From: Hydractinia symbiolongicarpus
Taxonomy: Eukaryota > Cnidaria > Hydrozoa > Anthoathecata > Hydractiniidae
Direction: 5' to 3'
NCBI RefSeq assembly: GCF_029227915.1
Contig: NC_079879.1
Span: 4,960,001-5,024,000, forward strand
DNA length: 64,000 bases
Below the pieces are notes generated by a model. It saw only the letters and a list, made by a program, of their open reading frames with translations. It was not told the origin of the DNA and made no database searches. Below, in pieces: positions 11,001-38,463 of this stretch (within the stretch, counting starts at the first letter, position 1; each line of letters starts with the position of its first letter). The position numbers were made by a program, and so were the translations under genes.

Positions 11001-13756
11001 GTATTTTTTCGTTGTTACTGTTTTTAACGCTACGAAGTGGTTGATGTCGTTATAATAAACCTTAATGTAAACAAAGTTAAATCAATGTTTACATCTGTTA
11101 CGTTACCGTTTAAAATAATATTCGATTCTTCAATTCGAAAACACTGCATTGTTATCATGCACTGCACGTTTGCGCATTGGGAAGGTTGCTATATGTAATA
11201 GACTAAATAGCTCATTTGGTATGATGCATTAGAATCTGTACGTTGTGGAAACTTTGCAATAACCTTATTTGTGTGACTTATCGATTTTTTCTAATGTCTG
11301 GTATACCATTTTCCCTTTTATATTTCGGGCATGGCAAAGCAAGTATATAGTTTTAACAGATTTGTTAGCCACCTTCGATTTTGTTAAACTTTTTGCATTT
11401 TTATGTTGCTGGACATGCTTATATTTTTAAGCGTTCTGTTTCAGCGGGTACAAATATAACGCAGATTGTGAGCAACTTCAATCCCAGGGTTTTTTTCTCC
11501 TTTATTGTTATTTTTTTATTGCTGCACATATTTATTTTTTTGGACGTTTTGTTTTAGTGGTTATAAACTAGAATAATACAAATTGTGACTTTTAAAAATT
11601 CATATTACTGTGTTGTATGTTTTTGTTTGGTATCCCTTACATCGGTTTAATGAGAGATTCAGTGGATTCCCCCACGGGTATTCAGCTAGTCTATATAATA
11701 ATACGCCAGTTCCGTGTGTGTGTCTGTCACTTTTGCAAAGTGGATAAAATGTCTTTAATAAAGTCTACAAAACATTGCCTATAAAATTGTTCTGTAATTT
11801 ACCAAACTTTTAACGTTAAAATAATAAACCTCAAAGGAAAGTATATTAAATTAATGAAGCCATTACAGTGCACTTAAAACTTTGAGGCCAAATAACTTGG
11901 AAACGAGGTGGTGACGTCAATGATTTTTCACCGCATAGGTAACTAGGGACCACCCGGGAACAATTTGGGTAGGTTTCCCAAACCTGGGTCCCCGAATCCG
12001 TTTCGGAATGGATGGGTTGATGACGTCAACAAAAAACGTTCAAACCCTAATATCTCTGCAACCGTTTGTCAAAAGTACATGATCATATACATTTTCTTGA
12101 TCAGTGTTTCAAGATCTATACAAGGTAGGCAACAGGCATATAAATACCTTAAAAAATGTTTTTGTGTTTTGGCGGGTCATTGCTGACGTTAGCAAAATTT
12201 TTAAACCATTATATCTTCTTAGGCTTTCGCATAAAATATATCATCCTATACATTATTTTGATCAGCTATTCAAGCTCTACACACATTAATTCAATGTCAA
12301 ACCCTTTTGATTGTTCTTTTGCCTATAAGTAGATTTTCAACAGGTTTATCGCCTAGTTAATATAATTAGATGACACAGGTAAATGTATCTATTAAAACTG
12401 TTTACTCCACAAATACTTGTAACGTTATTTGCAAAAAGACAAGACAAAAAATATATACCCGATGGCAACCATATAACAAAAGATCAGAATCTTCAGAAAT
12501 TGTCAACTGTGTTATTCCTTCTTTCATCAAATAAGCGAGTTGGGCATCAGCTTCATATGGTGCAACAATACATTTTACATTCAGTGTACAACACTCCTAT
12601 AACAATAATAAATCTACTAATGTATTCATATAAGGTTTGCTTCATACATACACTTGATTTGGAAATTGTGGTGAAAGGCTTACCTGCTTTTACAGCTTAA
12701 TAATAATAGCTAAAAACAAACCTTGATAACTTCAGATGCCATTTGAGGCGTGATATCACAGCACTTTTGAAAGTTTTCAAAAGCTTCCTGACTTTTCCCT
12801 TCTCTTAGTGCGGCAATACCACGGGAACGATATTCTTTTCTTTTCCTGGTGTGCAATTAAACATTTCAGTTTATATCAAAAATTTCGTTTTAATAAAAAT
12901 CCTAAGTTTTGTAATCAAGTTTGAACAATTATATAGTTATCTAATATGACAGCTGTAAGGACTGTAGAAAGATTACCACTTAGATAAATAATTGAAAAGA
13001 TGTTTAGAAAACATCTTTTCAATCAAGCAATGACCCTTCCAGACATCTAAGGATCATTAGTCATGTTTTAAATGATGTTCTAGAATCATATATATATTGT
13101 GTAATAACTGTGCCCATTCGAAACATAAATTTGACATATTTTGTTGACCTAATAATAGAGGACCACTATATCAGCCAAGAATTTAGTCTATATTGGCCAA
13201 TCTAAATATATATACTGAATTTTAATTGTAATGCTTAGTTAGATTATGGCTATTAAAGATGGCTTATTCACAATTATTTATTGATAGGTTGTGTTTCATT
13301 TTTTAACTATCAGTGTCACATTTATCTAAAAAAAAAGTTCTGTTAAAAAAAGCCTTCTAATTTGATGTTAACTGTTTGTATTACATGCATATAACAATTT
13401 TCATATAAAAAATTTTTAGAATCTAGTTCCTTCTTTCATCAGTTCATTACCATGCTGTATTGCATATTAACTTACGCTCGACGTTCCTTCTCTTTTTCAG
13501 ACTTAGCTGGCAAGTATCCACCATCAAATACCATGATTGGTGTCACACCATTGTTAATAAGCATGTTCAAGCGACGTACAACATAATGAATGTACACTTT
13601 AGTCGGTTGGCCCAGTACTAGATCTTTAGCACAACCATAAGCACCTTTGTGAAGCCAACAATATGCGTCAATTCCAACCGTTTGTCCTTTAAAGTTGGAC
13701 ATTGATGTTTTTACTTGAATGTCCTTTAACAATGGAAGGAGTCCCTGTATGCCCAT
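5077..13756 (-). CDS. EXO1: Exonuclease 1 (5'-3' exonuclease/flap endonuclease)
   Basis: EXO1 degrades DNA 5' to 3' and cuts flaps in mismatch repair and double-strand break resection in the nucleus. Eleven coding exons, all in frame, are 13756-13476, 12845-12722, 12596-12459, 9654-9445, 9041-8854, 8678-8588, 8422-8212, 7622-7424, 7227-6588, 6499-6472 (28-base microexon) and 5237-5077, giving 756 residues (human 846). The XPG-N and XPG-I nuclease core is intact: MGIQGLLP start, D30, FDGG with D78, E150 and D152 in EADAQLAY, D171 and D173 in SEDSDLL, and D226 in SGCDYL. EALREGK-like and QIALGN helical motifs follow. The C-terminal half is serine/lysine-rich and disordered. A splice-assembled SRYF motif near residue 480 resembles an MLH1-interacting box. 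The intron between exons 8 and 9 uses a GC donor. An acceptor-like TTTTTAG lies just upstream of the ATG. Confidence 0.93.
7228..7423 (-). other. GC-AG intron of EXO1
   Basis: Exon 8 must end in phase 2 to keep frame with exon 9, whose acceptor is GGTTTAG. The only donor at that phase is AG|GCAAGT, the classic consensus of the rare GC donor class. Nearby GT alternatives would shift the frame. Confidence 0.7.
8745..8798. repeat. Three tandem copies of an 18-bp unit
   Basis: The unit AAAAAATACAATGGTAGC occurs three times without change, inside an EXO1 intron between exons 5 and 6. Confidence 0.9.
9680..11690 (+). mobile_element. Helitron-like non-autonomous element in EXO1 intron
   Basis: The left end reads TCTATATATTAATACGCC followed by a GT-rich run, inserted after A. 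The right end reads CCCCCACGGGTATTCAGCTAGT, that is, a short palindrome followed by CTAGT. A TC start, a CTRRT end with a preceding hairpin, and no target duplication are Helitron hallmarks. No Rep/helicase coding is visible, so it would be non-autonomous. Immediately after it a second similar left end starts at about 11690 (TCTATATAATAATACGCC). The boundaries are by eye and could be wrong. Confidence 0.4.
11690..12340 (+). mobile_element. Second Helitron-like left end, truncated
   Basis: This begins with the same TCTATATAATAATACGCC start and GT-rich run as the element before it, then continues with sequence containing GACGTCA and CCACCCGGGAACAATTTGGG. No clear right end is seen before the next EXO1 exon (12459), so the limit given is approximate. 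Confidence 0.3.
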
Positions 13757-15356
13757 TGTTATATGTATAATTCTAAAAATAAATAAAAAGTACATAATAT
13801 TGTATTAAGACTAAAAGTTTTTAAAAGCTTGTATCTAAGCCCTACATGTTTACTCACAAAATTTGATTGCAAACCGACATGAAGATCCCAAGTTGTGAGT
13901 TCGTCAGCAAAAAATTAAGAGGCCTGGGACGAGCAAACAAGTGTCATTTTGGCAAAAATTATGTTAATCAATTAACCTTTATAATATCTATGCATTGATA
14001 AAGTTTGAATGACACCCCTTAACAGGTCTAAAATTATGATGAAAGAATGTCTAAATTTGCTATTACTGAAATATGACATCATAATTCATGCAGCATAATT
14101 AAATCTAAAATTCTTTAAATGTGAATATCTTGAGAACGAAAAGAGTTTTTAAAAAATTTAAAAAGACTTGTTAGCTAACTTTTTAAGCTCTATAATATAA
14201 GTCCAACATCATTTTATACCTCGGTTCCCTTTAAGCACTATAAGAACACTTGATCTTTTTCAAGGCCGGAGGACAGTATGTCATTTATTCAGCCTTGTCC
14301 CCAGGGATTTTCGCCGTCACCCATTATTTGCCTGGTGACGAGGGTTGTCATTAATTCAAAAATTAGAGTTATCAAAATCCAGCTCAATCAATATTCAGGA
14401 CCAGAATTAGGTCTGGGAATTTTTTGAGTTCATGGAAGAGAGGCGTTTCTCACTTTGGAAGAGAAGTGCATAAATAAAACAAAAGATTTATATATTTGAA
14501 TTAAGATACAAAGAGGATACTGCCTTTGTTAGGAATAACTGAAAAACTTCAGTGGGAAAAGATGCCTGGATTTGTCCTATGTCAACTGGGGGGATTTGAT
14601 CAATGACAAGATTGATTTTAACATCGATTATTTGAGACCTTTATTTGTAGAATCTGCTTGGAACACGTATCAGGTATGTTTTCTTCTTGTTTATGGCTTT
14701 GTTTGCTACTCATCATTGTGCTTTATTTAGTTGAAGAAAATATGTTGGGAACCAAAGTTTGTAGTAATGATTAAATACAAGAAATGTTCAACTTGGTTTC
14801 ATTGGTCATTTATCTACTGTTATTGTTTAATTTATAAAGGAAATTTAACTTTAGTGTTTCTTTTTAATATTTTATATTTTTAGGGAATGCATCGATTAGG
14901 ATACAGGGCTAAAAAGACAAAAACTAACTGAACCATAGATTGATATTATAAATATATAAACAAACTAGGAACAAAAATTGCTATTCTTTCCGAGTTTCAT
15001 TTCCACACCTTGAACACATACATTAATAGTTCAAACTAGACGGAGATACCATTCTCAAACTAAGACAGAGAGACCGTAATAATATTAAACAGAGGAAAAG
15101 TGTTCCTAAAAAATTAAATAAAATCCAGATAGTCCATAAAAAACTTTTTGTATACAGCTAGCTGAATAAACATTGGCGACAAGTCTACAAAGGTCCCCAT
15201 GGCTTACTCAGATCACGAAAGAGATAAGTGCTTCACACTTTACAAGGGAAGTGTTTTAAACAGAAAAGAAGATTTCAGAGGAAAGAAAAGGAGTGTTTTG
15301 GCTGAGAAGTGTTTTTATTAAGAAAGAGAAGTGAGCCATTATGGGCCATTGTAAAT

Positions 15357-15451
15357 AGACCTTTTTAAATGTTTACATTTTTCGCGGTAAGCTCTTTTAG
15401 CTTTAACAATTGCGCGGCAGTTAAAAAAATGCAGGTATTCAAAAAGGTCTA
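15357..15451. mobile_element. Short inverted-repeat element (MITE-like)
   Basis: The left end AGACCTTTTTAAATG and the right end, read in reverse, AGACCTTTTTGAATA match at 13 of 15 positions and enclose about 65 bases, which suggests a small non-autonomous DNA transposon. Confidence 0.45.
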
Positions 15452-16017
15452 GGCTAGCTGCTAGATGGTAGCTAGCTACACAAGTCTCATAATAACCTTT
15501 TCTTCAAATTTATGACATGACATTGATCATGTTCTTATTAAGTTAAACTTGTAAGAAGGTTTAGAATAAGTTAGTAAAAGATGTTTTAAATATTCTTACT
15601 AACTGAAGAATATAAACCAAGAATTGTTGAAAAGCATGCTGTTCTTGTTTACTGGCTTTCCCGCCATTTTTATCCCATCCAAACACACAGTAGCCGAAAA
15701 AAAGTACAACGGGCGTGACAAAAACGAGGTCGAGATTAAAAAGGACTGCCGCGCGCACTTCGATCTTATTCTCATGTCACTCGCTGTTTCTTTCATCCAC
15801 AGAAATATTAACAAAAACATAATCCATTGGAATAAAAATTGAAATGAATGACGCAAATAAATGAGAGTCAAGTGATTTTTCAAGAGGTATGGGAAAGGGA
15901 GAAAATTATTTCCTCTCGTGTGAAACACGATGCAATAAAGTATAAAAAGCATTGATAAACGTATATTCAGATGTAGTTTTTAATAAACACCTAATTTGTC
16001 TTATTAAAAAAAATCGC

Positions 16018-16056
16018 AAACGAGAAACAACTGCTTGAAACAGTTGTTTCTCGTTT
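16018..16056. repeat. Perfect 16-bp-stem hairpin
   Basis: AAACGAGAAACAACTG is followed after a 7-base loop by its exact reverse complement. It lies about 1 kb upstream of the arrestin start codon. It could be a foldback repeat or a structured RNA; nothing in the sequence decides. Confidence 0.85.
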
Positions 16057-16689
16057 TATATAGCTGCAAGAAATCGACCTTTGCTACAGGCATAACCTTT
16101 GTGAAAGTACAAATATGGGAAAAGATAAAAAAAGTAAAATTGAATGCTTGATAATAACTAAATATTGTCCTTGTTTTTAAAGCAAAAAAAATTCAAGTAT
16201 ATGTGAAGGGACGAAGTTTGAATTAAAAATAACTTCGGAATATATTTATTTTTTAGCTCGTCAAAAATGCGTAAATATGTCTTAACCACAAGATTAAAAT
16301 CTTATATTTTACCATCTTGTAGTCTCGTGTTTGCGATATTCATAATAAAGCTATATAATGTGTAAAATGGCGCGTATTAAAAAAGGGTGAATGGAAGCGC
16401 GAGGTGCGCAATTAAACATTCATATTTCGACTGAATCGTAAGCAAAAATACGATTCGTTACAGAATCAGGGGGTTGAGTATAAAGAAATTGGAACTTCCT
16501 TTTCATTTTTTTAATAGTAAAAAGTAGTACAATAGTTAAAAGAATTTACTGAAAACTTTTTTAATAGTATGCTTCGTGTTTTGTTTTGTTTTATTTACTT
16601 TTTTTTAAATTTATATGAGTTTTAAATAAAATGTTGCAAAGGTTGAATGGAAATGAAGTTGTGAAAAGTGAAATTGTTCAATTTGATAA

Positions 16690-16705
16690 CCCCCCCCCCC
16701 CCCCG
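16690..16705. repeat. Poly-C tract
   Basis: An uninterrupted run of about 16 C residues (16690-16705) lies 0.3 kb upstream of the arrestin gene. The exact length in an assembly of this kind may be unreliable. Confidence 0.85.
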
Positions 16706-17017
16706 TCTGTTGCGTTACTAATTAAGCTAACTAGTACTTGCATAAACTTAATGAAGCAAAAGTGACAGAAAAGATTTGCAAATGGTGAAAGCATGAAATT
16801 GATGCAAAGACTTAATAAGTAGGTTTTCACACAAAAAAATTTTTTTTGCACTTTAGATAAATATTTCTTTCTATATTTTGTTGCGTGTTATTTCAGGAAA
16901 AAATTGAACTGGAAAATCAGGAAGGAGATTTCAATTTGGCAGGGCGGTATTTAATCGTCGATATAGAGAGAAATTTAAGGTTTATGTATTTTACTTGTTA
17001 TACAAGTTTTAATTAAA

Positions 17018-20000
17018 ATGAAGAATCTTCGAGAATTTACGTTGGTGACAAAAGATAACCAAACTGCTTACTTACCCGGAGACGTGATCCATGGAGAACT
17101 CTATGTCAGTTTTGATGAACCGATAACCATGAAATCAATGCGAGTGTGTCTCTTTGGAGAAGGTGCAGGGACGTGGCTTCATCAGGAGGATGCCAGCTAT
17201 GCAGATGCTTCCAAAGACTCGGATGGAAAACTGATGAAGCAGACTCTCGTCGATGTTGGACTTCTCGTGTTCGGCTATGCTGGTGATAAGGATGAAAACA
17301 CAGAAACGCATGAAAATGGGAGATACGTGTACGCATTTGAATTTAACGTTCCAAAGAATCTTCCATGCACGTTTAAAAGTCCTATTGAAAAAGATCTTGG
17401 ATTTGCTAAATATTCTTTACAAGCTATAATATCCAGACCAAAAAAATATGACAAGGTTACGAAACTCGCTATAGTAATAAACAAGTTGATAAATCCAGAA
17501 CATATTCCGTCAAATATCACTCCAGGTGCTATGAAAGATGCAAGTGTTGTCAATTCTGCTTGCATGCCTGTTGGTACTCTGAGTTTTGAAAGCTACCTAC
17601 CCCAATTGTGCTACACACAAGGGGATAACATACAAATTCACGCCAATGCAGAAAATAATTCTCCAAAAGTGATGAAAGAGATATACGCTAAACTGATTCG
17701 AAGAGTTCGTTGCAAATCAAAGTTTGGCAGCAGTACGTATACAATGGAGGAAACAAAAGTTCATGGTCCAAGAATACCTTCCGAACAAAAGTAAGAATTA
17801 TATGTTTCGTTATTTAAAAATAATCGTCAACTGACTAAACAAAGTGTTTCTTAAAGTTTAAAAATGAGCAGCTAGTCAACACTAATTGTATTCTCATGCC
17901 ATGCAAATCTCACGTTTTTTCAGTATATTTTTCAATGTTTAAGTGGTGCTGACATGATGCCTGTATAGATATTCTTTACTTTCTTCAAGGCAGACATACA
18001 ATATCCTCAAAAAAACTTTGGATCAAATTTGTTCTTCTATTTACTATAAAGTTTTGTACTTACTAGCAGAATATTAAAATATTGAAAATAAAAAAAGTAT
18101 AGTGACGTTAAAAATTCAAAATCAAAACAACGTTTTGTCAATACAAATACATTATTGATTTATTTATTTATTGATGGGTTCTTTAAAGAATGTTTCGTGT
18201 ACACGTAGCTTTTGAAAATAATTAACAAATGGTTATTCCAATTAGAGGAGACTTGAGTGTGCGATCAGCCATCTTGACGACGGTTTACTACTGATACTCT
18301 TTCTCATCATCTTTGTATCTTAACTTAAAGACTATGATGTTTAACGACAACGCGTGAAAACGAGGCTATATTCAATAGGGAGACGTCTTTTAGGCTTTTT
18401 TACACTTTCCGGTGTGGTGTTCCACCCGGCGATTTATACGTTCCTGTTATAAAAAACCGCTTTACAATCGACTTATTGCCAGAACACCTAAAATTTTAAA
18501 AAAGTTAAAAACTAACAGAAAAATGATAATTTTGGTATAAGAAATTATCCAGATTTAAAAAAAGGAGAATTTCTCTAATGATTGTGGTTGCTAATGCTTC
18601 AGTTTTGTGAAAAACATAGTCGAAATCAAACTATTACCGTTGCCTATTTAAAAAACGTATCGATTTTTTTTGAGCAAAGAATTATTATTAAGTAACTTCT
18701 GGAACTATAATTTCGGCGACAGATCAAAAAATTTAAGACCTAAATCTTTCAACATCTCTGATGGTTTGCTTTACCATGCAAATAAATCGCTATGGATTAT
18801 CGCTAGTTATCACATGTTGCTAACGGTACTTTGAAATATTGTCATTGATCGTGCACATGAGAAATCGTTATTTTATGCAGAACAAAGTAGTCTCCATCCT
18901 GTGTAGTACAAATTATTATAGAAGTCTTAAATTTGATGACCTGTGAAGACACTGATCTAAAACGTTTGGTTTAAAACCACAACAACTATTCACTCTGTAA
19001 TCTGTTCAACCTTAGATTTATTTGGGACAATCAAAAAATGCGAATACCTTCAATAGGCTCAACTGTGACTGGGAATAATGATGACATAAGAGTTGATTAC
19101 ATTGTCCGTGTTGGTATGCACGAAGACAAGGGAAGCGAAATTCATCTCGACCTGCCTGTTATTATTGGTACGATTGGTAATAAGGAAGGTATGATGTTTT
19201 TCTGATTGTTCCTTTGGTTTGTTTTCTTTCATAGAATTAACAACAAGAGAGAACTTTCGATGTGCTAGCATTTAACTATAATCTTTATATGTTCGTCTTC
19301 ATATTATTTTGTTCATTTGCAGATGAAGATAAAGAAGAAAAAATTGAAGATAATTTGTTTGATCGTAACCAACATAATTATGGCCTACAAGTTATTAAAG
19401 CAGCAGAACGTGACAATTATCGCGAAACATTAAAAGATAAATTAGATAAATCGGGCACACTGCCGCAAATTAATAGTGAATCTAAAATGTCAGATGACAA
19501 CATCAGATCTAAGGAAAGTAGAAATAAAGGCGAAGACACAGCTGACGGATATGAGGCGTATCGCAGTTTTGATGACAGCAACAGATCTAGAGTGAAAATA
19601 TTTGATGATGATATCAACATAGCTCTTTCAGATGCTGATTTGGATATAACCATAGGTGATGATACATTTAATTCAGCACGTGATGAAAACGATGGCCGAA
19701 GCAAGTCGGCTGCAGGTAGACCAATAAAGAAAATAAAAAATCAGATAGGAAAGGAAAGAAGTGCTTCAGCTGATGGCAGACTAAAAACACCAAAGGACGG
19801 TTCTGCTGAACGTGGCAGAGTGGGATCCGGATTAAGTTCTAAAGGTTTGCGACAAAAGTCAGCCTCACCATTGGGTAGCAGAGGAAGTATGGGAAGCATA
19901 AAAGGGAAAAACGGTTCTAAAGGGAAATTAAATGAAAGTAACGGTTCTCTTAGGAAAACAAAGTCAGGTTTAAAGGGAAGTAGCCAATCTCTCAAATCAA

Positions 20001-23000
20001 ATGGATCAAAGGGTGCAAATAAAGGTAAAAGTGGGAAAGATGATCTAGAAAATTCAACAAAATCACTGCATGGATCACAGTCATCTCTTATGGAAGATTT
20101 AATTGCCGGAATGGACAGTAAAAAAGATGGAGAAACATACAACGAAAATAAATGGGAAATACCTAGATACGTACCAAATGCAATTGATGGAGAAGATAAA
20201 AACGCAGGATTTCGAGATGCTAATCAATGGAATAACACCCCAAATAGTAGAAACGAACTTGAAAATTCCCCAAGCCTTCTCCATGGCGCTAGCACTCCAA
20301 TAAAACCAATCACAGAAGATGTCCAAGCCTTTGCTGAAGAAGGCGACCTTCATGCAGGACTTGAAGATGAAGCTTATTTGAACAAACTGGATGAAAATTC
20401 TCCAAAACTTCTCTATGGCGATTACCCTATTCAAAACCAATCAAATGATAGTGCTGGCGCACATAGAGAACCAATTACAGAAGACGTTCAAGCCTTTGCT
20501 GAAGAAGGCGATCTCCATGCAGGACCTGAATATGAAGCTTATTTGAACAAGCTAGATGTAAATTCTTCAAAAATTCTCTCGGGCGATTACCCTATTCAAA
20601 ACCAATCAAAAGAAAGTGCTGGCGCACAAAGAGAACCAATTACAGAAGACGTAGAGTCTCCCATTATACCATTGAGGAAAAATAATGATCATGCTACCGT
20701 GGACGACGAAGAGTATTTACGAGAATTTGAAAGACTTGAACAAGAATTTCAAGCTAAGAGTCCTTCAGCACAAAAGCGAATGCAAGAAAGCCGACCTATT
20801 CCAGTAGAACACACCGAAGAGCAGGGTTCTGATCAACTTTTAAATGGAGGATATGAAGTAGATGGAGAATACCAAAGTTACTCTCAACATCCAATGTCAC
20901 CAATTACAGAAGAAAAAGAAGAGGCAGTAGCAGGTACAGGTTTAGATGGTACACAAAAAGTTTTGGGAGGAGAATTAAAAACATCAACCCCTGCATCAAA
21001 TGCAATAAGCAATGACCATAATAATTTACATAATTTGAAAGACAACGCATCTGCTGATCCGGGGAATACCAAACAGCATGTTACGCCAGGGAATGATGAT
21101 TTGCAACGTAAAGATGATGGAGATACTGACGGAGAAAAAAAAGTGGGGGATCATCAAAAAGATGAGAAAAAAACAGGACTGAGTTCCCCATGGGGAATAG
21201 TGGGGATGATTGACAGGCTATTGGGAAGGAAAAAGAAGGAGGAAGACAAAGAAGACAGACAAACACCTTTAAAAAAGACTGATGCTGATTCTGCAGCAAC
21301 TGCTAGTATGAGTGAGAATCAAAGAGAAAATACGCAACAAACAGACAAAGTGAATGATAAAGAAAGAACCAAACTTCCTGAGAAAATAGAAGGTAAGAGG
21401 GAAACTTCTGAAATTCAGGGTATGCTTGATGCAATTGATGGAGGTAAAAATTTTGATAAACAAGAAGAGCACAAAACACCAAGTAAAGATCCGTTGAACA
21501 CTTTGGATAGCAGCGGGAAAGTAGGTGAAGGTGAAGATGTACAAAAATCAAATAAAGCAGCAGAACAAGATAAAGGTAAAGATGTGCAGAAAGAAATACA
21601 AGAGGAAGGTGACTTGAAGCACGGAGATCGAAGACCATTTTTTAATGACCAAACAAATGGCATTTCAAATTCTGAAACTAAATCCACCAAAAGCGAAGAT
21701 CAATCCGAGTGTGATACAAATACTGACATGCCGGATATTCCAGATGAGGATCCAGAGGAAGACAGTCTTGAAGATATCAATCAGCAAAACAATCTACCTT
21801 CCAAAAATTCTGAATCCATAAAAGATCAAACAAACACAATTATGAAAAACAAAACAAAATCTACTAAACCGAAAACTGGACCCAACAAAAAAGAAAAATT
21901 AGAAGCGTCACAAAAGTTAGGCAAGCAGGGAAAAAATAAAAGCGAGAACATAAAGAAGATCTTGCCATTAAAACCAGGAATATCGAAAAAGCCAAAAGCT
22001 GTAGCAAAGAAACCTGCATCGGAAGCAGGCAAGAAAGGAAAAGGTATTCGCATTCCTACTAGTATACCTGCAACGAAACATGACAGTTCTTTCTCATCAG
22101 ATTCTTTCTTTTCATCACATTCATCGTCAGAAAGTGACGACGAACAGGAAAAGAGAACATCTAAATTAAAACAGGCAGCTGGGGAACTGTATGGTGACTC
22201 TACACAGGATAGGAAGACAGAAAGGGAAAAAGGAAAACACGACAGAGACAAAGTAGCTGGTCCTAGAGAGGCAAGAAACGAGAAAAAACAATGCAATGAT
22301 ATGTTTCCTGAAGATGAAGGGTACGGAACTATTGGAAGACAAAAAGATAAAAAGAGTCCAGGGAAGGGACAAGGTAAAGACAATGAAAAATTGAGCAAAC
22401 CTAACCAACCTAGCTCTAAACGACCACCACTGAATAAAATAAGCAATATTAAACCACAAGATAAGCCTGTATCGGAAAAACACAATAAAGCTAATGTAAG
22501 CAAGAATCCTGCTAAGGTGCAAGATTTATCACCTTCACAAAGTCCAGCAAAAGAAAAGATAAAAAAGCCAATCGGACTGGAGGACAAGCGTTTGAAAAAG
22601 CACACTACAATACCACCTAAAGCTTCCAAAATAAGTTCCAAATCGCTTCCGTCCAAAGGATCTACGGATAAAAATGGAGTTAAAAAGCTAAAAAAAAGTC
22701 CCGACACAGCCAGCCCAAAACTAAAAGAAGAAAAGCCATTGAAACAATCAGAACATATCAAAGAAGAAGAGCCAACACAAAACAAAGTCACCCAAAAACG
22801 ACACCCATCTGCACATACATCTTCCACAGACAAACTTCCCTATGTAGCCTCTCCTAATCATATCAGTGACCAGTACTATCCTGACCACCATAATACTGAC
22901 AATGACAATCAAGAGCCTGGAGATTCGCCACACCATCCCAACCGATCTTCATCACCGATTAAATCTAAACAGGATCCAACATCACGACAACAACATGGCT

Positions 23001-26000
23001 CAGCAACAGAGAAAATACATCAACACGATCCCTGTTATAATGATCCAGCAAGAGTACAACAAAGCCCTGAGGATCTATCACGTGGTGGAAACCGATCTTC
23101 ATCACCGATTAAATCTAAACAGGATCCAACATCACGTCAACAACATAGTTCCGCACCAGAGAAAATACATCAACACGATCCCTATTATAATGATCCAGCA
23201 AGAGTACGACAAAGACCTAAGGATACACCACGTGGTGTCAACCGACCTTTATCCCCGACTAAATCTAAACAGGATCCAACATCAAATCAACAACATGGTT
23301 CTGCACCAGAGAAAGTACATCAATATGGTCCCTATTATAATGATCCAGCAAGAGTACAACAAACACCTGAGGATATATCACGTGGTGGCAACCGATCTTC
23401 ATCACCCACAAAATCCAAACAATATTCAACATCACGTCAACAACATAGTTCCGCACCAAAGGAAATACATCAACATGATCCCTATTATAATGATCGAGCA
23501 AGAGTACAACAAACACCTGAGGATATACAAAAAGATGGCAAGCGATTTTCATCACCGAATAAATCTAAACAGGATCCAACATCACGTCAACAACATAGTT
23601 CCGCACCAGAGAAAATACATCAACATGATCTCTATTATATTGATCCAGCAAGAGTACAACAAACACCTGAGGATATATTACGTGGTGGCAACCGATCTTC
23701 ATCACCGACTAAATCCAAACAAGATCCAACATCACGTCAACAACATAGTTCCGCACCAGAGAAAATACATCAACATGATCCCTATTATAATGATCCAGCA
23801 AGAGTACAACAAACACCTGAGGATATATCACGTGGTGGCAACCGATCTTCATCACCGACTAAATCCAAACAAGGTCCCACATCACGTCAACAACATAGTT
23901 CCGCACCAGAGAAAATACATCAACATGATTCCTATTATAATGATCCAGCAAGAGTACAACAAACACCTGAGGATATATCACGTGGTGGCAACCGATCTTC
24001 ATCACCGACTAAATCCAAACAAGATCCAACATCACGTCAACAACATAGTTCCCCACCAGAGAAAATACATCAACATGATCCCTATTATAATGATCCAGCA
24101 AGAGTACAACAAACACCTGAGGATATATCACGTGGTGGCAACCGATCTTCATCACCGGCTAAATCCAAACAAGATCCAACATCACGTCAACAACATAGTT
24201 CCGCACCAGAGAAAATACATCAACATGATCCCTATTATAATGATCCAGCAAGAGTACAACAAACACCTGAGGATATATCACGTGGTGGCAACCGATCTTC
24301 ATCACCGACTAAATCCAAACAAGATCCAACATCACGTCAACAACATAGTTCCGCACCAGAGAAAATACATCAAGATGATCCCTATTATAATGATCCAGCA
24401 AGAGTACAACAAACACCTGAGGATATATCACGTGGTGGCAACCGATCTTCATCACCGACTAAATCCAAACAAGATCCAACATCACGTCAACAACATAGTT
24501 CCGCACCAGCGAAAATACATCAACATGATCCCTATTATAATGATCCAGCAAGAGTACAACAAACACCTGAGGATATATCACGTGGTGGCAACCGATCTTC
24601 ATCACCGACTAAATCCAAACAAGATCCAACATCACGTCAACAACATAGTTCCGTACCAGAGAAAATACATCAACATGATCTCTATTATAATGATCCAGCA
24701 AGAGTACAACAAACACCTGAGGATATATCACTTGTTGGCAAGCGATCTTCATCACCCACTAAATCCAAACAAGATCCCACATCACGTCAACAACATAGTT
24801 CCGCACCAGAGAAAATACATCAATATGATCCCTATTATAATGATCCAGCAAAAGCAAAACAAAGCCCTGAGGATCTATCACGTGGTGGAAACCGATCTTT
24901 ATCACCGAATAAATGCAACCAGGATCAAACATCACGTCAACAACATAGTTCCGCACCAGTGAAAATACATCAACATGATCCCTATTATAATGATCCAGCA
25001 AGAGTACAACAAACACCTGAGGATATATCACGTGGTGGCAACCGATCTTCATCACCGGCTAAATCCAAACAAGATCCAACATCACGTCAACAACATAGTT
25101 CCGCACCAGAGAAAATACATCAACATGATCCCTATTATAATGATCCAGCAAGAGTACAACAAACACCTGAGGATATATCACGTGGTGGCAACCGATCTTC
25201 ATCACCGACTAAATCCAAACAAGATCCAACATCACGTCAACAACATAGTTCCGCACCAGAGAAAATACATCAACATGATCCCTATTATAATGATCCAGCA
25301 AGAGTACAACAAACACCTGAGGATATATCACGTGGTGGCAACCGATCTTCATCACCGAATAAATCCAACCAGGATCCAACATCATGTCGACAACATAGTT
25401 CCGCACCAGAGAAAATACATCAACATGATCCCTATTATAATGATCCAGCAAGAGTACAACAAAGACCTAAGGATATATCAAAAGATGGCAACCGATATTC
25501 ATCACCCACTAAATCCAAACAATATTCAACGTCACGTCAACAACATGGCCCTGCACCAAAGAAAATACATCAACATGATCCCTATTATAATGATCCAGCA
25601 AGAGTACAACAAACACCTGAGGATATATCACGTGGTGGCAAACGATCTTCATCACCCACTAAATCCAAACAATATTCAACAACACGTCAACAACATGGCC
25701 CTGCACCAGAGAAAATACATCAACACGATCCCTATAATATTGATCGTAGAAGAACGCAGCAAAGACCCGAGGATTTATCACAAGATGGCAAGCGCCCTTC
25801 ATCATCAACTAATTCGAAACAGGACCCATATTTGCGACAATCTCATGACGAAAAACCAGCAAATGGAAAACACGTACATCAATCTCCAAATCGACAGAAG
25901 AAAGATCAGATTTGGTCAGCAAAAATCGATGACGGCTTTTATGACCCTTATTTAAAGGTGCATGAAAGCATGCCAAAAGACGCAAGTTTCATACCATCAC

Positions 26001-29000
26001 AAGTTCCGGACATAATTGCCAATGTAAAATATAAGTCTCCAAAGACAATGGTCAAAACTAAGAAAACACCCCAGGATGCTAGCAGAACTCCTGAGAAAAT
26101 GGATAAAAAGGGCAAACAAAAGAAACAAACTTTAGCGTTTGGAAAAGACAACGGCAGTAAAGAAGAAACTAAATCAAACAATCGAAAAACAAAAGTTAAA
26201 GAAGAGAAGATTCATAACAAAAAGCTATTAAGTTCTACAGCAAAACCCATAAAAGAAAAAGTGACATACAGTGACGACGAAAAGGTTCCTTTAAATGACA
26301 GATATATACCCATTATTCAACATGACAAGATACATTCAGGAGGAACTGGCGACACCTTACTTCAAACTAATAAAAATTACCCAAAAATCCAAGGTCATGT
26401 AAACTTAGCTGAAACTAGTCCGACAAAGAAAGCAGTAAACAAATATGGACATAATGACAAAACGAAGAACACACAAAGTAAAAATCAAAGTCAGAACGTT
26501 ACAAAGAAACCTTATGTATCACCCTATCGTCAGATACCTAAAAGTAAAAAGAGAGTCACTCCGCCCGAACATGCAAAACAACTTAGGGAAGCCCAGAATG
26601 ATCTTCACCCAAGACCAGATGAATTAGTCGGGTTAGAAGCTATGCTGGAAAAAGGAGTAAAAATAGGTCCTGAACTAAGTATGGACAAAAATAATGAAGA
26701 ATCTATGAGGAAAGGAAAAAATGTGTCCTCCTCTAGGTACGGATCTGGAATACAACGATCTCCTTCGGCACCTAATGCTCCAGAAGATCTTTCTAGTAAC
26801 GTTGATATGTCTGAATCTAAAGATAGGTATGTCAGAATGAAATCAGAAGACGCTGAGGTTTTAAGATCACAATGTAAGCCTAAAAATGATGCCAAAGGAT
26901 TTAGCAGCAGTTGGAATGGACCTCGTGATTACGGTTACATGGAATCACGAGGACGTGTTTTGCCATACGTCGGACACATTGAACGAATCGATCATGATAA
27001 AAGTGTTTCATTGGAAGATATAGATAGGATTCAGAATAAGTACTCAAGTAGTTTCGAGAAAAAACCAGCAGGTATTTCACCAGTTCATTCAAACAGTTTT
27101 GACTTCGTTTTGGTCCCACCATACGCGACAGAAACAGTCACACTTCATGGAGGAAACGAAGATGTAACACTGGAAGTAGTGCTGGATGAAATAAAGACAA
27201 AGCAACCAACGCAGGATAAGAAAGAAAATCAGCACATCGTAATAAAAGACGAAACTAATTCTGAAACTGGGATACATACTGCTGACGCAATAACTGAAGC
27301 TACGAAGTCTGGAAATGAAAATAAAACACAGAAAAAACAAACAGATCTCCCGCTAAAAAAAACTGAACGTGATATATATGAAAATCAAACAGGTAGTGAT
27401 AAAAATGAAGACGAAGGAGGCAATAAAAATTGCAGAGTTATAACAGAATCGCTGACTCTCCCCCCTGTACCTACTGAAAGCACGAAGGTGCCTGAAGGAA
27501 CGTTAAAGCTGCCATTACCACCAGCTAAAACAGAAAGCAAAAAGGACGACACAAAAACCGATAGAAATTTAAACATCAACAAACCGAGTTTAGGTGGTTT
27601 CGTAAATGGAGGATTCTCAGTAGAGACAACAATACCAAGCAGGGAGAAAATCATCGTGCCGGTCAATTACTTTCCTTTGACACGATCACCACCAACGACT
27701 AAAAAACAGAACCAAACACGGCAAACAAGCGATGACGTCACATCTAGGGCAAGAAGTGCCTCACCACAGAAACGCTCTTACAAAACAGAAAAAGAAAAAC
27801 GGAGTCGCAGTTTATCTCCTATTCAATTTAAAACGCCAGATGAAACAAGCCAGAAAACAGATTCGTCTAAACAAAAACCTCCCAAGATTTCTAACAATAA
27901 CACTCAAAAATCTAAAATTCCCTTACGAAGTCCTCGCGATGCAACCCAAAAAGCAAATAAAATCGCACAAACAACAACGACCTCATCAACTACCAAGATA
28001 AAGAGTCCACGTTCAACGCAGGGTGAAGTAAAAACACAAATTGATACTGGCGGCGATCACAATTTATCTACATCGTTAGATCATTCAACGTACGACGAAA
28101 GAGTCGTGATTGGCGGTGGGCTTATATTTAATTCTCCAAAAAAATCCCTGAAACGAACGATAGTAGCAAGAGAAAGGAAGTCCAAAGTTCGTGCTACTTC
28201 CTCTTCCAAAATAAGAGAAAAAGAGAAACCACCTCGATCAAGATCAAAAATTATAGATCCAACCTATACCTTAAAATCAAGTTACAAACAGCCAAATAAT
28301 AAGAAACAAAAAGATGAAGTTGACGAATTAATTGAATTAGCATTGAAAGAGGAAATAAAACGAAGCAAAATGGATGGAACAGAACCTTACAAGGAACCAA
28401 CAACTTCGTGTGGATTCGCTGGATCCATTCCACGTATTGTTGCATATGATGTTCCGTGTAGCCCTATCAAAGAAAGGAGAACTGATGAAAAAAAGAGCAG
28501 CACCATACCTTACCAAACAGAGAGAAATACACAACAAACACAAAGTATAACTTCATCGAAACAAACGTTCGATTTTGTTGGTGTTACACCTTCGTATGAA
28601 AATAAAGTCAATCTAACAAGGTTTGAAAAGAAACAGAAAGAAGAATTAATGTCAGGTAGACAAGAAGGAAAACCAATGTTCGAAGAGAATTATATTCATC
28701 AAGCACAAGAAAAACAAAATAGACAACAAGGTGTCGTTATTATGAGGAAACCGCCTAAGTCAGATGTTCGTCCTCTCCGTTCCAAATTTAAAAACAACAG
28801 TCAGTTAGATACAAACAACAAAACTGAGATTCTAGCTACAAAGATTCCACAATGGTACAAACAAACAACACCTGCGGGTGAGGGTGTAAACCACTTAAAA
28901 GTTCGGTCACGTGACGACAGTTTTGATAGTTTTGAGCATCATGAGAAGTTACTGGGAATTGTGGACGAGCATGGGAAATTAAAACGTAAACGAGGCTTGC

Positions 29001-29697
29001 TAGAAAGTATACTTGGTGAAGATGAATACGAAGAACTACAAATAAGAAAATCTAGAGTACAAAGAAGAAGATATAAAAGGTTTTTAGAGGATTTAGAAAC
29101 AGTCAAACATGGACGACCTGCAAGTTGTCCCGGTGCTATTGGACCAAGAGAAGGCTGGTTTGAAATTTCTGACCAGATGTACGGAGACATCAACAGTAGT
29201 GAGACAGGGACAGAATACACAAGTGATGACGAACACTACGCACGGTAAGAGTAAGTAACCACACTACACACCAATCATATTTCACATTAACTTGTTTCCA
29301 GACCTTTGTAAAGAAGCCAAGTGTGGCTCCGTTTTTTTTGTGAACAGCCTTGAAAAATATTCTTAAAGAGGGTCGAGCTCAAATCACCAAGTTTTTTCAA
29401 GACGTCAATAAAAACTAAGCAGGCGAAGGTCGCCGTGTTAGTCAAGTAAACATGAAACACAACAATACAATTTTTAACTTTTTATACTTTGTAACAAAAT
29501 GTGTCACTCTCTTTAGAATACAACTGACTGAGCCACAACAAAAAAATACTGATGACACAAAGTTACACAGAACAACTCCTTATCATTCTATCCCGCCCAA
29601 AGGAACACATGTCGATTTCCCGCTAGGAGGGTTTGGTTACGAAGAAGAAATATTGGAAACGTATCAATTTATAGAAGAAAGAGAGCGAAAAAGATAG
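17018..29697 (+). CDS. Alpha-arrestin fused to a giant disordered repeat tail
   Basis: Four exons, 17018-17790, 19016-19188, 19323-29244 and 29517-29697, join in frame (phases 2, 1, 2) with GT-AG sites to give about 3,682 residues. Residues 1 to about 155 form an arrestin N lobe (LPGDVIHGELYV, YAFEFNVPKNLPCTF) and about 175-315 an arrestin C lobe ending in DLPVIIGTI, as in ARRDC proteins, which act as adaptors for membrane-protein ubiquitination and trafficking. The next roughly 3,300 residues are hydrophilic, rich in Lys, Ser, Glu and Pro, with no recognised fold. They include a two-copy acidic repeat (PITEDVQAFAEEGDLHAG) and 19 copies of a 50-residue unit. I saw no PPxY motif, which most ARRDC tails carry. 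The fusion rests on exact phase agreement across the 134-base intron 19189-19322. An alternative is two adjacent genes, but the giant exon has no good start of its own before its acceptor. Confidence 0.8.
20302..20656 (+). repeat. Two-copy acidic repeat in the arrestin tail
   Basis: Two copies of about 165 bp each encode PITEDVQAFAEEGDLHAG followed by an EAYLNKLD segment and a DYPIQNQS segment. A third PITEDV start follows at about 20634. The copies differ at several codons, so the duplication is older than the central 150-bp array. Confidence 0.8.
22940..25830 (+). repeat. 19 x 150-bp in-frame coding repeat plus partial 20th
   Basis: Units start every 150 bp from 22940 to 25640, with a degenerate partial unit from 25790. 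No insertion or deletion interrupts the register. Each unit encodes 50 residues of the form NRSSSPTKSKQDPTSRQQHS, then SAPEKIHQHDPYYNDPARVQ and QTPEDISRGG. Central units (about 23690-24690) are nearly identical in DNA while the edges are diverged, as expected for recent unequal exchange in the middle of an array. Most units carry an SPxK motif, a proline-directed kinase consensus, and a DPYYND segment. Confidence 0.95.
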
Positions 29698-29868
29698 TTT
29701 AATATTTTTTATACATAAACCAACAAGTGTTTCTCTCTCAAAATTACTCAGACACGACGCATTATACAGAAAGCTGTTCATTCGCATGAAAAATCATTTT
29801 CAATAGACATTGTAGTATAAAAAACTGTACATAGTTAAAAAAATTTGTAAAAAGAATTTCTTTTTCCT

Positions 29869-29874
29869 AATAAA
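29869..29874 (+). terminator. Poly(A) signal AATAAA of the arrestin gene
   Basis: A canonical AATAAA lies 172 bases beyond the stop codon of the giant arrestin gene, in the short gap before the converging ZCCHC4 gene. Confidence 0.6.
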
Positions 29875-29955
29875 ATTACATTAGTTAATTAGAAATCTGT
29901 CATGTCTTAAATTTCTTGCTTACGCAACACTAGCCTGTCTTACGTAAAACTAGCT

Positions 29956-32900
29956 TCAAACAAGTGTTTTTCGTTTTTTCTTCTTTTTAACAGGTTCGTT
30001 GCGTGTTGTGTCTTCCGTTATCGAGCGCTTACCGTGGCTGGACAGCCTAAAAAAATATTTGAAATCATTTCTAAAAAAACTTATAAAAACAGGCCGTTTC
30101 TAAAATTTCACTTTCAGCATGAGGGTCAATTTGAAAGGGAAGAAATCTTTATATTAAAGAACTAATTCCTGTTTAAAGCACATAGAGGTACACTGAATTT
30201 ATGCGTTAATTCCAGGATGCTTATTTGAAAGGGGGCGTGTATGGAATTGTAGGTAACTTTACTATACTATTTTTTAGAGAGGCGTTGCTTTTTGATTGAG
30301 GGTAGTTGGATCGGCTACTTGCCGTGGACTCATAACAGCAGCCAAAAGAAGTCAATATGCAATCTCCTTCCTAAAAATGTCACGTGTTTCCAACGCTAGT
30401 TTGTGAGGCCAAGGACTCACTAAGCATAGGAAACGAATTAACTGATATAATTAAATGTTAGGTAGTATATTTACCTAGATTCCATTTTTTTTTGTGGGCA
30501 GTCTCTTCTTTTGTGGTTAAGATCGCCACATATATGACAACCAATCTTTTCTCTATATAACAATGAATTAGATTTGAAGCGTATACGCATGTGACAGGGA
30601 ACGGTTACAAAACAAGAAAACAATAAGATCACCCTTCTTTTCACGTAAAAAATGATTGAAAGTACCTTCCACATTCATGGTTTGCAGGTTCACAGCTTCC
30701 GCAAGTATCACAGTGAACTCGACCTATAAAACAACAAGATATTTCAGTTACTCGTATAACTTTCTGATCAGAAGATTTCACCTACATTCTTCTTACCGAA
30801 ACAAAAAAACAAACTACTTCTGCATTTCTTATTTTACCTTGATTTTTATGAGAACAGTGAATTTTGTATCAATACATTTCATTCTACAACAACAAAAATC
30901 CATGTCACAAGAGAAGCATATCGCCATTGACAAACTTAGAAGGAAAAGAAGCCAGTTTTTTTAGCCAAATTTTGAGCAAAACAACATGTCTGTCATTAAC
31001 ATGCTTCTTTGTTTATTTCGTTGACTGCGCCAATTTTTTCGCCAATAGGCGCCCTAATATATAGCAAGGCAACAACGAAATCTGGTACATTCGCTTCTTA
31101 AATTGGAGGTATACATTACATCTTTTCGGTATTACACGAGTTCTTAAATTATACAAGTCGAAGACTATGATTAATCTCGAAACATTTCTTTTTACCACTC
31201 ACCAGGTTTCACGCATTTCTTGCAAGTTTTACAATGTACATATGTACGCCCGTCCTATAAAAGGATAAAATAGACGTATAAGAGGATACTATGAACAGAG
31301 TTTATTGGAAGAAAGAAAGATGCGGAAGACATTTACCTTGGACGTGCACAGTTTGCAAATTTTACAATGTCTATTTCCTTTATAAACATATCGTTGACAT
31401 AATTTGCAAAACCTAGATTGAAAAAGAAAAAGAAATAAAAGTTTTTTAAAAGAACAAACGTTATAGGAATAGATATTGAAGCGCGATGAAAACCAAACAA
31501 TCTATGCAACAAAACAACGCACCGGTATCCTTCTTGTGGGAGCGCAACGCGATCTGCAGGGATGTTGGTGAATACTCGTACTGGCGATCCACGAGGGTTT
31601 TTTGAGTTGTTAGTGTAATGTGGATGGTTAGAGTAGGATACCTATACAAAAGAAAGAACAAAATTTGTTATATATTTTTTAAAAGTTTTGTTCTGCTCAC
31701 CAAATACAATCTAAGTGAGATACAGCGGCTTGCCAAACAAAGCATCAAGATTAAAAAAAATTGAATAAACACGAGACGAACTTATTATCTTACCTTATAG
31801 TCGAGCATGGTGAAGTCTCCTATATTCTTGTTTACATGCGATTCAAGAAAGTAGGGAAAGACTAGAATAGTTGGTAACACTTCTTCACTCCCTGCTTTTA
31901 AATAAGATACAAAACACTCAAATAGTTAGACTGTACTCGAAGTTAGTCAAAAGCAAACGAAGTAGAAAATCACAGACACAAAAGGTTACACAAGCACTTA
32001 AAGTCATTTTCGTATAATAATCATAAAAAGTAAGTACGTTATATTACGCGACAATCTTGCAATAAAGTCAGGTGTTTTCTATTAGGACCAAAAAGCGAGA
32101 ACACGAGCAAATTCATTAAGGTAAATTCTTCATGCAAATAATTGTTCAAGAATTTATTAGATTAATTTCAGGATATATTTCAATTCAACATGAATCATCA
32201 GCTAAAATAAATTAAAAACAGATTAAAACCTATCCGAAAGGTTGTCTCAGGTGGTATACTATATTGTTTGTCCAAGTTGCGAAGCTTGCTATGTAGGCCA
32301 GACTGACCGACAGATCACCCGACCCAAAAACACTCGAATCCGACAAAAACCGATGGTGCCCCTTTTTATGGAATGTGATATTAAACTAAAAATGGAACAC
32401 GTGTCTATTATCAGTACAGCAAGAACAATAACACAATTATTAATTATGGAAGTCCTAGCGATCAAGCCAATAAAACCTGAACTGAATACCAAAGATGAAT
32501 ACAGTAGGCGCATAGTGACCATTAAATTATAAATGCGCTTTAACAAAATTTCAATTTTATCCGTAGAAAACTTATTGTAGTAGACTTTAATACAAAGATT
32601 TGATGTGGACACTGTATCTCTTTTTATTTCATTTTAGCTGATGATGGTTCACGTTAAAATGAAATATTTTTAAACGATTATTTGTATGAACAAATTCTTT
32701 TTTCTTATATACCTTCTGTCTTTTGTTGTGTTTATTTAGAAATAAGAAAAGTAATTTGACATATTAAAATGACCTTTAAAATATTTGCAGTTAATCATTC
32801 TGCTTACCCATTTTCCACAATGATTTTAAAGTCTTTGCCAGAATATTTACAAGGCCACCAAACGGAGGGTCAACAATGATCAATGTTTCTATCGGACTTT

Positions 32901-35161: not shown

Positions 35162-38100
35162 ATGGCAAAACGTCAGTTAACTTTATTCAGCGAATTTGCG
35201 ACGGAAATGAAACTTTATTCACAACCAAAAAATGAGTATCAAAAATTTTAAACATGTTTTTCTCCAAAAACAGTGCTAGTGGTAAAACAAAAGAAGCTTT
35301 AAAAAAATCATCTGATAAGCTTTGGAAAGTGGTATTTCTTTGTTTTTATTATTATTTTATTATTTTATTATTATTTATGATTAGAAGTTTTTATGAGAAG
35401 AGATCAGACTCCCAAAACTAAAAGCAAATTTTTCAAAACTTCGGCTCCAAGAATCGGAGAAGCATCAAATGCAGTCTCAGAAAAAACTGACGAATCCAGT
35501 ATTGATTTTCAATGTGTATCAAGCACTCCATCTTTTTCTACTTCCACGAGTGTCAGTTCTTCGTTCGCTAACCCTGCGTCAGTGAAAAACAAGAGAAAGC
35601 TTGAAACTGCAAAAAATATCTTTTCGTTAAGCGGTAGTTGGTTCCGTAAAGACTCTAAATTAAAACAACGTCTCAATGATGTTGAAAAAATATCAAGTAA
35701 AATTCTAAAATTACTGAAAAATATGAAAAGTATAAAAATTACCGCAAATAATGGAATGTATCAAATCTTATAGCTAACATCCAAAAGAAAGAAAATTTTA
35801 TATGCCGGACCATCCCTCTCCTGTCGAATTTAATTAAACATGTTGGTGATAACACGTTTCTCAATAATTTGAAACGTCGTATCACACAAATAAGGGCAAC
35901 AAGAATCAGTAAAATAGATCCGTCGGATGACTTTCATATTGCCGGCACAAATGATACATCTCTATCCTGGGAAGAAAGTATCGATAACCTGATAGAAGCC
36001 ACAAGTTTACATGAATACATCAAGCCATTCTCATGGAAGCTCATTTTTAAACTATCAGAGTTCCTTCAAAATGTTACATCAGTTTCAGAGGAATTTTTGA
36101 CAAAAAAGTTCTCCATTGCTGATGATAAACACACCCTATTAAGAAAACACATGCTTAGCTTGTTTCCAGTTATGCATATTAAATTCGCAAAGTTCACAGC
36201 TTATGTCAATATTTGGCAAATAGGCTTGGACACAAACATTGAGCATCTGGAAGAAAAAGAAGAAACAAGCTCAACAAATGATAATAAAAACAATATGCGA
36301 TCAGGAGAGAATCAAACGGATGAGCCACACGAAAAGGTTGGCAGACCTCTAATTATTCAATATCCTGACATTATTCACAACCTTTGTGAAATCACATGGT
36401 AATGTCGCACAAGAGCAACAACATAACTACACTTCCCAGTCTGCAGGTGTAAGTTTCAAGGACGTGTGAAACCACTTACTTAAGGCAATACCGGAACTGG
36501 GTGAATGTGGAATTTCACTCAATGCTGTTGGATATCTCTTTGGTCCACCCAACAAAGCAGCTAATACATAGCTACACATTATACAAAGGTTATGTTGCGG
36601 CTAAGGTACCACAAAACAATATTAGAAAGAAAAACAAAAACGCGCATTTTCTTTTTGCTAGAGTAAAATACAGACGTGAATTAGCAGCTATGTTTTCCAA
36701 CAATTTAAGTGTAATGTCTGCAGATTGCATGAATCAGTTGCGGTGCTCTTCAAACACCACAACTTCAGGTTACCACCAAATCAGTCATCGATTCATGGAA
36801 GATGATGGACCAAGCGTATTCGACCATGATTTTCCAGTTCCAAGATATTTGATAAAACCAAGTGGCATGGAACCGTGCAGCAAAAAAAATTCGGACCCTA
36901 TTCTCTGATACCATTGTAACAACAATGACACTTCCGACAACGTGGAAGATATATTAGCTGATATAGTTTCTGCTGTATCTGAATCAGTGATTAAAAATCC
37001 TAACGAGGATTTTGTTGTGGATTCACATGGTGGGAAACATATTAAACTCCACACAGTGGTCCCAGCTTCGTTTACTTGAGATCGTCAAAGCTCTTAAGTG
37101 TGAATATGGAAACTCACAATAGGGATATTAAGTCACTTATGGAAAAAATCAAAAGTGAGAACAAAAAAGATGTCCTTCTTTTACCTGATAGAGGTCATGA
37201 CCGAAGCCAGCAATCATACCCTAATTTGTATTTTTACTACAAGTTGTGGAAAGAACATGACTTGGATATGATAATTGTATGGTCTTTCGCACCAGACTAT
37301 TCTGCTTACAATCCCATAGAACATTTGTGGTCGCCACTTTCTTGAGCTGGGGTGCCGGGAAACCCCTTTGCAGATGACGATGAATGACCTCCTGCATACC
37401 TGTCACTTCCACCAGCAGATAAATTGCAGAAAGAAATTTCTGTTTTTGATTGAGAAATGCAAAAGGTAAAGCTGCATTGGGATGGCAAAGACTTAGATGG
37501 TTGGCTAATTTTAACACAAGTCGTAGAATCAAAGGAATGTCTTGACATTGGTGAAATGGAATATAATTTGGTCCATGAAAATTGTATATTTAACTTCAGC
37601 ATTCAACTTACCCACCAAATTTAAAGAAATTCATAGGACTTTCAACGAAATCATAAAAATACTGATTGACGCAGCTGCGAAATAATGATTAAAAAGTGTG
37701 GTTCTTGCAAGTACTGTACAGAAAATCATATTTAAAGTACGGCGTTATTCAATTTTATCGAAACACACACCATCTTCGACCCACAGCCCTCACATGCAAT
37801 AGAAGGTTCTCTTAGGACCTTTTTGAAAATGACTGAAATTGAAAAAAAGGACCTCGTATTACCAAACACTTATTTCCAAAACAAAAACAAAAAGAAACTT
37901 GTGCGGAGTAATATTTGTCCTGTGTGGGTGTTTTCTTCAGAGACAGAAATGAAAAGGCACTTCAAATTGAACCACCCAAAGCATAAAATGCCACCATCCA
38001 AATCTTTAGTCAATGCTGACAAAAACGTAGTGTTAGCTAGAAAAGGGAAATGCCCAGATAAGACCTACGTTTCTTCTTTCAAAACGTACCATCAGTTGCT

Positions 38101-38463
38101 GAAGTATAAAAAAACTACCAGACATGTAGGATACAAGAAAAGAAGCTCTGATAATTTCAAAGCAGGGGTAAAGTCTAAGCAATTAAAGCTGATGGCGTTT
38201 TTTGTCAAGTCTTCTTTTAACAAGAAAAATGTTAGCATTTCATCAGTCACCAATCGAACGGACGACGACAACTTTGAAGGTTCAAGTCACAAAATGTTTG
38301 CGCTTTATGCCAAGAAGAGGAACCACCCAACATGAAAGAAAGTGCAAACACAATCAATTGGGTGTGTTGTAATATCTGCGATCAATGGTATCATAACGTT
38401 TGTGTTGTAATTGAAATAGCCTCTGGTTTCGATGTGTTTACCTGTATGGACTACGAGAAATGA
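35162..38463 (+). pseudogene. Wrecked DDE transposase-like gene with C2H2 and PHD remnants
   Basis: Open pieces at 35162-35251, 35393-35773, 35869-36402, 36501-36908, 37076-37345 and 37823-38335 read in one direction but are broken by stops and frameshifts. A conserved block LLLPDRGHDRS followed by APDYSAYNPIEHLWSPLS resembles the DDE catalytic part of invertebrate transposases whose usual form is DGGPDWS; the aspartate context is altered here. Further on a C2H2-like finger (VFSSETEMKRHFKLNH) and a PHD-like end (WVCCNICDQWYHNVC) are seen. It sits immediately upstream of ZCCHC4. Terminal repeats were not found. The family assignment is by motif resemblance only. Confidence 0.6.

Follow-up and report, generated by a model that had tools for sequence, protein, structure and literature searches.

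A giant alpha-arrestin-like protein is predicted from the forward strand of a 64,000-nt stretch of Hydractinia symbiolongicarpus DNA, referred to here as the window. A two-lobed arrestin head (residues 1–315) is followed by a tail of 3,367 residues (residues 316–3682), and the arrestin part amounts to less than one-tenth of the chain. The architecture is real and unusual at the sequence level. Circumstantial evidence indicates that head and tail probably belong to one joined transcription unit. Slightly short of an even chance is the fuller reading that one gene produces one protein, in which a cargo- or lipid-binding alpha-arrestin head carries a phosphorylatable, disordered scaffold tail.

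The gene model comprises four coding exons on the plus strand (17018–17790, 19016–19188, 19323–29244 and 29517–29697) separated by three GT-AG introns. Exon 1 carries the start codon at 17018, the arrestin N lobe and the first part of the C lobe (residues 1–257 plus 2 nt), and exon 2 supplies the remainder of the C lobe, with the last strand, LPVIIGTIG, at its end. Intron 2 (19189–19322, 134 nt) separates the head from the tail. Exon 3 (9,922 nt) encodes the putatively disordered tail, and exon 4 adds, in phase, the last 60 residues, including a split codon, and the stop codon at 29695–29697. The joined reading frame of 11,049 nt (773 + 173 + 9,922 + 181 nt) contains no internal stop and predicts a product of 3,682 residues plus stop, with a mass of 413 kDa and a pI of 9.1. 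The exon ends and phases of the original prediction were reproduced in this way, with the splicing read from the sequence, and its figure of about 3,307 open codons for exon 3 agreed with the 0 in-frame stops found there. All three donors matched the generally known donor consensus at 7 of 9 positions (exon 1, AAAA/GTAAGA), and at least 7 matches were reached by 24 of the 679 GT sites in 15000–31000. The exons are presumably spliced together in the mRNA. A T-rich stretch upstream of the start, ending in an unscored AG at 16895–16896, suggests that an upstream leader precedes the first coding exon. Downstream, an AATAAA poly(A)-signal-like hexamer lies on the plus strand at 29869–29874, 172 nt beyond the stop codon; AATAAA and ATTAAA hexamers are frequent locally (40 in the 13,500 nt of 17001–30500).

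The openness of exon 3 is not due to chance. A model of first-order base statistics puts the log10 probability that no stop would occur at about −32 in the unique part on the 5′ side and at about −30 in that on the 3′ side. These unique parts, which flank a tandem array, carry the coding evidence. The array itself says less, since on the plus strand it contains 0 stops in one frame and 1 in another, so that a second frame is almost open too. Coding composition was scored against 297 control windows, with stop codons excluded, using a model from the interior of exon 3 (A) and a model from other open reading frames of the window together with exon 1 (B), the training set of B thus including exon 1 and frames trimmed by eye. 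The controls came from seven regions picked as non-coding, which may hold unrecognised exons, and three of these overlap the training sequence of the non-coding model. Scores as high as that of exon 1 were found in 4/297 controls under A and 1/297 under B (exon 1 being part of the training of B), with corresponding values of 1/297 and 2/297 for exon 2 and 0/297 and 3/297 for exon 4. For non-repeat exon 3, no control scored as high under A; under B, 1/297 did so for the 5′ part and 5/297 for the 3′ part, the latter being modestly coding-like under this independent model.

Residues 1–315 are predicted to form a complete two-lobed arrestin. With exons 1 and 2 joined, Pfam returned Arrestin_N (PF00339, E 1.3e-18, 67.8 bits against a cut-off of 24.9) and Arrestin_C (PF02752, E 8.7e-20, 71.9 bits against a cut-off of 27.7), the latter over profile positions 3–135 of 137. 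Exon 1 alone gave Arrestin_N at 1.8e-18 and only a partial Arrestin_C at 7.6e-10; the first splice is therefore well supported, because the C lobe is completed only by exon 2. The best PDB sequence match to the head was TXNIP (E 5e-18, residues 2–310 aligned). Three PDB matches fell under E 1e-6, namely two of TXNIP and the arrestin-domain protein of 7usy, and none was a beta-arrestin. Judged from these sequence matches to solved structures, the head is alpha-arrestin-like and apparently nearer to alpha- than to beta-arrestins. Single-sequence AlphaFold2 gave no usable model of exon 1 (mean pLDDT 29).

The 3,367-residue tail looks disordered. Charge-hydropathy classed all 100-residue blocks from residue 201 onward as disordered, a method that over-calls disorder, given that block 201–300, also called, lies in the folded head. 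On a residue-propensity disorder scale, the tail scored 0.24 versus 0.09 for the head; a single 40-residue window, starting at residue 396, looked ordered. Pfam gave no match up to E 10 in any of the four exon 3 pieces searched and none up to E 0.1 in exon 4, and NCBIfam gave none up to E 1 in four of four tail pieces. Towards the C terminus, single-sequence AlphaFold2 suggested at low confidence that 28928–29107 (plus strand) may be helical, with a mean pLDDT of 52 for the C-terminal piece and helices within positions 77–136 of that piece. A 181-residue stretch from the end of exon 3 had 16 PDB matches up to E 10 (best E 0.42); these were apolipoprotein E in 15 cases and YeaR in one, and were rejected as charged-helix chance. 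The tail end gave 9 pattern matches among viral contigs and 68 among bacterial and archaeal species genomes, and exon 1 gave one among viral contigs; none of these was confirmed as a relative. The absence of viral or prokaryotic relatives is expected for an animal gene.

Part of the tail is built from tandem repeats. In its centre, a 150-bp (50-residue) unit occurs in 19.3 copies at 22939–25828 on the plus strand, with the consensus RSSSPTKSKQDPTSRQQHSSAPEKIHQHDPYYNDPARVQQTPEDISRGGN, and a 165-bp (55-residue) unit occurs in 2.1 copies at 20304–20652 on the same strand. The motif SPx[KR] is present in all 19 copies of the 50-residue repeat. Relative to the consensus, the copies of the 150-bp repeat carry 79 distinct changes, of which 19 are synonymous (17.9 expected), giving a dN/dS of about 0.93; no stop is found where about 4.4 would be expected, and the register is held across the 19 copies. 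The amino-acid sequence of the repeat looks to drift freely, at a near-neutral rate. Neutral residues, absence of stops and constant register together look like the pattern of a spacer that is obliged to stay open. A second long open frame over the array (22848–24962 and onward, to 25955) was rejected as a gene, since it arises because the 150-bp unit is almost stop-free in two frames. Elsewhere in the window, a 29-bp minisatellite at 54178–54706 is repeated 18 times, shows a higher-order period of 204 bp and is open in three minus frames.

Neither PPxY nor LPxY occurs anywhere in the 3,682-residue protein, as the original prediction had stated for PPxY. Shuffled versions of the tail give only about 0.6 PPxY, so the absence is unremarkable by itself. 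The further suggestion that the absence breaks with the family is weakened, because PPxY is also missing from human ARRDC5 and from some alpha-arrestins of Drosophila (PMC10945707, PMC9105457); since ARRDC5 lacks it too, a missing PPxY does not exclude membership of the alpha-arrestins. Fifteen partly overlapping motif classes, defined in the customary way except for the [ST]x[IL]P rule, were counted in the non-repeat tail and compared with 500 local shuffles. Three of the 15 were clearly above the shuffles: [ST]P (41 versus a mean of 25, 0/500 as high), the nested class [ST]Px[KR] (12 versus 4.8, 1/500) and [ST]xIP (7 versus about 1.2, 0/500). No clear excess over shuffles was found in the non-repeat tail for 14-3-3 motifs (2 versus 1.3) or for SH3, cyclin RxL, GSK3, CK2, LxVP, PPxY and LPxY motifs. 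R[RK]x[ST] was rarer there than in shuffles (0 versus 3.6, 14/500 as low), and a looser basophilic pattern was at chance level in the whole tail (5 versus 6.2). Counted without a shuffle control, the endocytic motifs DPW/DPF, NPF and FxDxF were absent, and one clathrin-box-like LVGLE and 18 YxxPhi motifs were present.

The reading that we tentatively favour connects these properties. The two-lobed head would bind a membrane protein or membrane lipid. The tail, with its excess of sites for proline-directed phosphorylation and its added length from the 50-residue tandem repeat, would be a long scaffold or tether tunable by kinases, and would not serve to dock NEDD4-type ligases through PPxY. The scaffold idea of the original prediction is plausible in the light of the motif statistics and of one fungal precedent, Sms1 (PMC13144348). 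Against a kinase scaffold, MAPK docking motifs in the non-repeat tail were not above chance (D-motif, 8 versus a shuffle mean of 8.6; DEF, in two forms, 0). Long disordered regions are commonly S/T-P-rich, and the S/T-P enrichment is for this reason weak evidence of kinase scaffolding. The neutral drift of the repeat would also argue against a specific binding role for each repeat.

An alternative that we regard as unlikely, though as the most probable of those considered, is that the joined protein is real and is an ordinary trafficking adaptor, with a functional head and a tail that is a lineage-specific, mostly neutral expansion of little function. The near-neutral dN/dS of the repeat copies, the lack of known domains in the tail (Pfam, NCBIfam) and the existence of other PPxY-less alpha-arrestins (PMC10945707, PMC9105457) all fit such an adaptor. 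Against it, over 2,300 codons of the non-repeat tail have stayed open, the non-repeat tail scores as coding under both models, and S/T-P and [ST]xIP motifs exceed the shuffles.

A division of the locus into two genes or products is rather improbable. Here, a short PPxY-less alpha-arrestin would end at about exon 2. Exon 3 onward would encode a second product, a large disordered protein, perhaps expressed from a promoter of its own or through a leader trans-spliced at 19322, and splicing of head to tail would be occasional or would never occur. Retention of intron 2 would indeed give a tail-less arrestin of 320 residues, with a stop following GMMFF, and two ATTAAA hexamers inside exon 3 (19394 and 19429) could terminate such an intron-retaining mRNA. 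The 19322 acceptor, which ranks at the 97th percentile of AG sites in 15000–31000 for pyrimidine richness, could serve trans-splicing, which is used by some cnidarians; exon 3 has its first in-frame methionine at 19487. However, the coding composition of exon 3 already starts at the acceptor, 54 codons ahead of this methionine: scores as high as that of the intervening codons were found in 0/297 (A) and 5/297 (B) controls, and for the 27 open codons directly upstream of the acceptor, 292/297 and 261/297 controls scored as high or higher. The gap between head and tail is only 134 nt and the phases fit. A single transcription unit is favoured because of this short gap and the coding composition from the tail acceptor onward. 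The lack of AATAAA and ATTAAA in intron 2 adds nothing in its favour, since the local density predicts only about 0.4 such hexamers there. The head–tail join of the original prediction holds in its phase and in its very long, disorder-like and PPxY-free tail, the joining itself being deduced from genomic sequence. The joined product may be accompanied by a short arrestin isoform.

The least probable of the alternatives is that the head–tail protein is a microtubule plus-end linker, in which [ST]xIP motifs bind EB-family proteins, adjacent phosphorylation sets the attachment and cargo is brought to microtubule ends. The published rule for EB-binding motifs asks for [ST]x[IL]P in a disordered region, with a basic residue present and acidic residues absent within a span of 9 residues (PMC9877351). 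The motifs on the plus strand include TSIP (22058–22069, residues 1228–1231), TTIP (22604–22615, residues 1410–1413), SKIP (27911–27922, residues 3179–3182), STIP (28499–28510, residues 3375–3378) and TKIP (28838–28849, residues 3488–3491), of which STIP and TKIP passed the context rule in two of four placements. The excess of the seven [ST]xIP motifs over shuffles favours the linker, and five motifs follow the rule in two of four frame placements, against an expectation of about 0.8 (five or more in 1 and 2 of 1000 shuffles). However, only three pass in the other two placements (36 and 52 of 1000 shuffles as high), the stricter S.IP is less extreme (3 versus 0.74, 16/500 as high), and [ST]xIP was singled out from many motif classes. 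No microtubule-binding domain was found by Pfam in any of the four exon 3 pieces. Single SKIP-type motifs say little, because SKIP also occurs in an unrelated open reading frame at 6549–7280, on the strand of an XPG-type nuclease exon. It is very doubtful that an alpha-arrestin, once a ubiquitin-ligase adaptor, has become a giant cytoskeletal tether, with a head that captures membrane cargo and a tail of more than 3,300 residues that reaches growing microtubule ends, under kinase control, by means of several [ST]xIP motifs and CDK-like SPx[KR] sites. The putative microtubule link is a lead only.

Other features were observed in the window. An XPG_N domain lies at 13472–13804 on the minus strand (Pfam E 2.5e-22); together with the frames at 9376–9687 and 6549–7280, both without a Pfam match, it looks like a gene in several exons, which we read as exonuclease 1. 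Thiamine-pyrophosphate enzyme N and C domains are found at 55201–59014 (minus; Pfam E 1.1e-22 and 2.9e-23), presumably resembling oxalyl-CoA decarboxylase/HACL, and a calponin-homology domain with a calponin repeat, transgelin/calponin-like, at 44090–44653 (minus; Pfam E 4.9e-17 and 3.4e-10). An open reading frame cluster at 35381–38335 looks like a decayed DNA transposon; its frames at 35752–36402 and 37046–37345 had no Pfam match. Rfam and tRNA scans of the whole window gave no match.

Compared with known systems, the predicted protein shares its Arrestin_N and Arrestin_C lobes with the metazoan alpha-arrestins TXNIP and ARRDC1–4, the C-terminal tails of which are short. Those C termini carry PY motifs (PMC9105457), whereas the present tail has 3,367 residues without PY. 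The arrestin-domain protein of PDB 7usy matched residues 14–311 (E 2e-12) and has a chain of 469 residues, versus 3,682 here; we take it to be the C. elegans protein that is part of the TMC-1 complex. We know of no comparable long tail in ARRDC5 or in the PPxY-less Drosophila alpha-arrestins. These proteins, like the present one, have no PPxY (PMC10945707). A precedent for the favoured scaffold reading is fission-yeast Sms1, a PY-less hemi-arrestin that acts as a MAPK scaffold, has a disordered C terminus and undergoes proline-directed phosphorylation (PMC13144348). Both proteins have an arrestin fold, no PY motif and a disordered (here predicted) C terminus bearing S/T-P sites. Sms1 is a single arrestin lobe, whereas two lobes are predicted here, and all its S/T-P sites are replaced in the mutant 22A, versus 81 sites here (PMC13144348). 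By motif counts, MAPK docking motifs are not enriched here. Our literature search found no paper on an arrestin that combines a tandem repeat, disorder and a C-terminal extension, none on the arrestin domain in Nematostella and Hydra, and none joining arrestin or the arrestin domain with microtubule binding or EB1.

The unusual elements are thus the length of the tail and its repeats; PPxY absence is already known in the family and the fold is not new. If the join is true, the arrestin fold would here belong to a protein of about 413 kDa and make up less than one-tenth of its chain. The repeats, near-neutral yet unbroken, would be a possible case of selection on length, not on sequence. The favoured reading, if true, suggests that the alpha-arrestin head may be re-usable outside ligase recruitment in animals, as with Sms1 in fission yeast.
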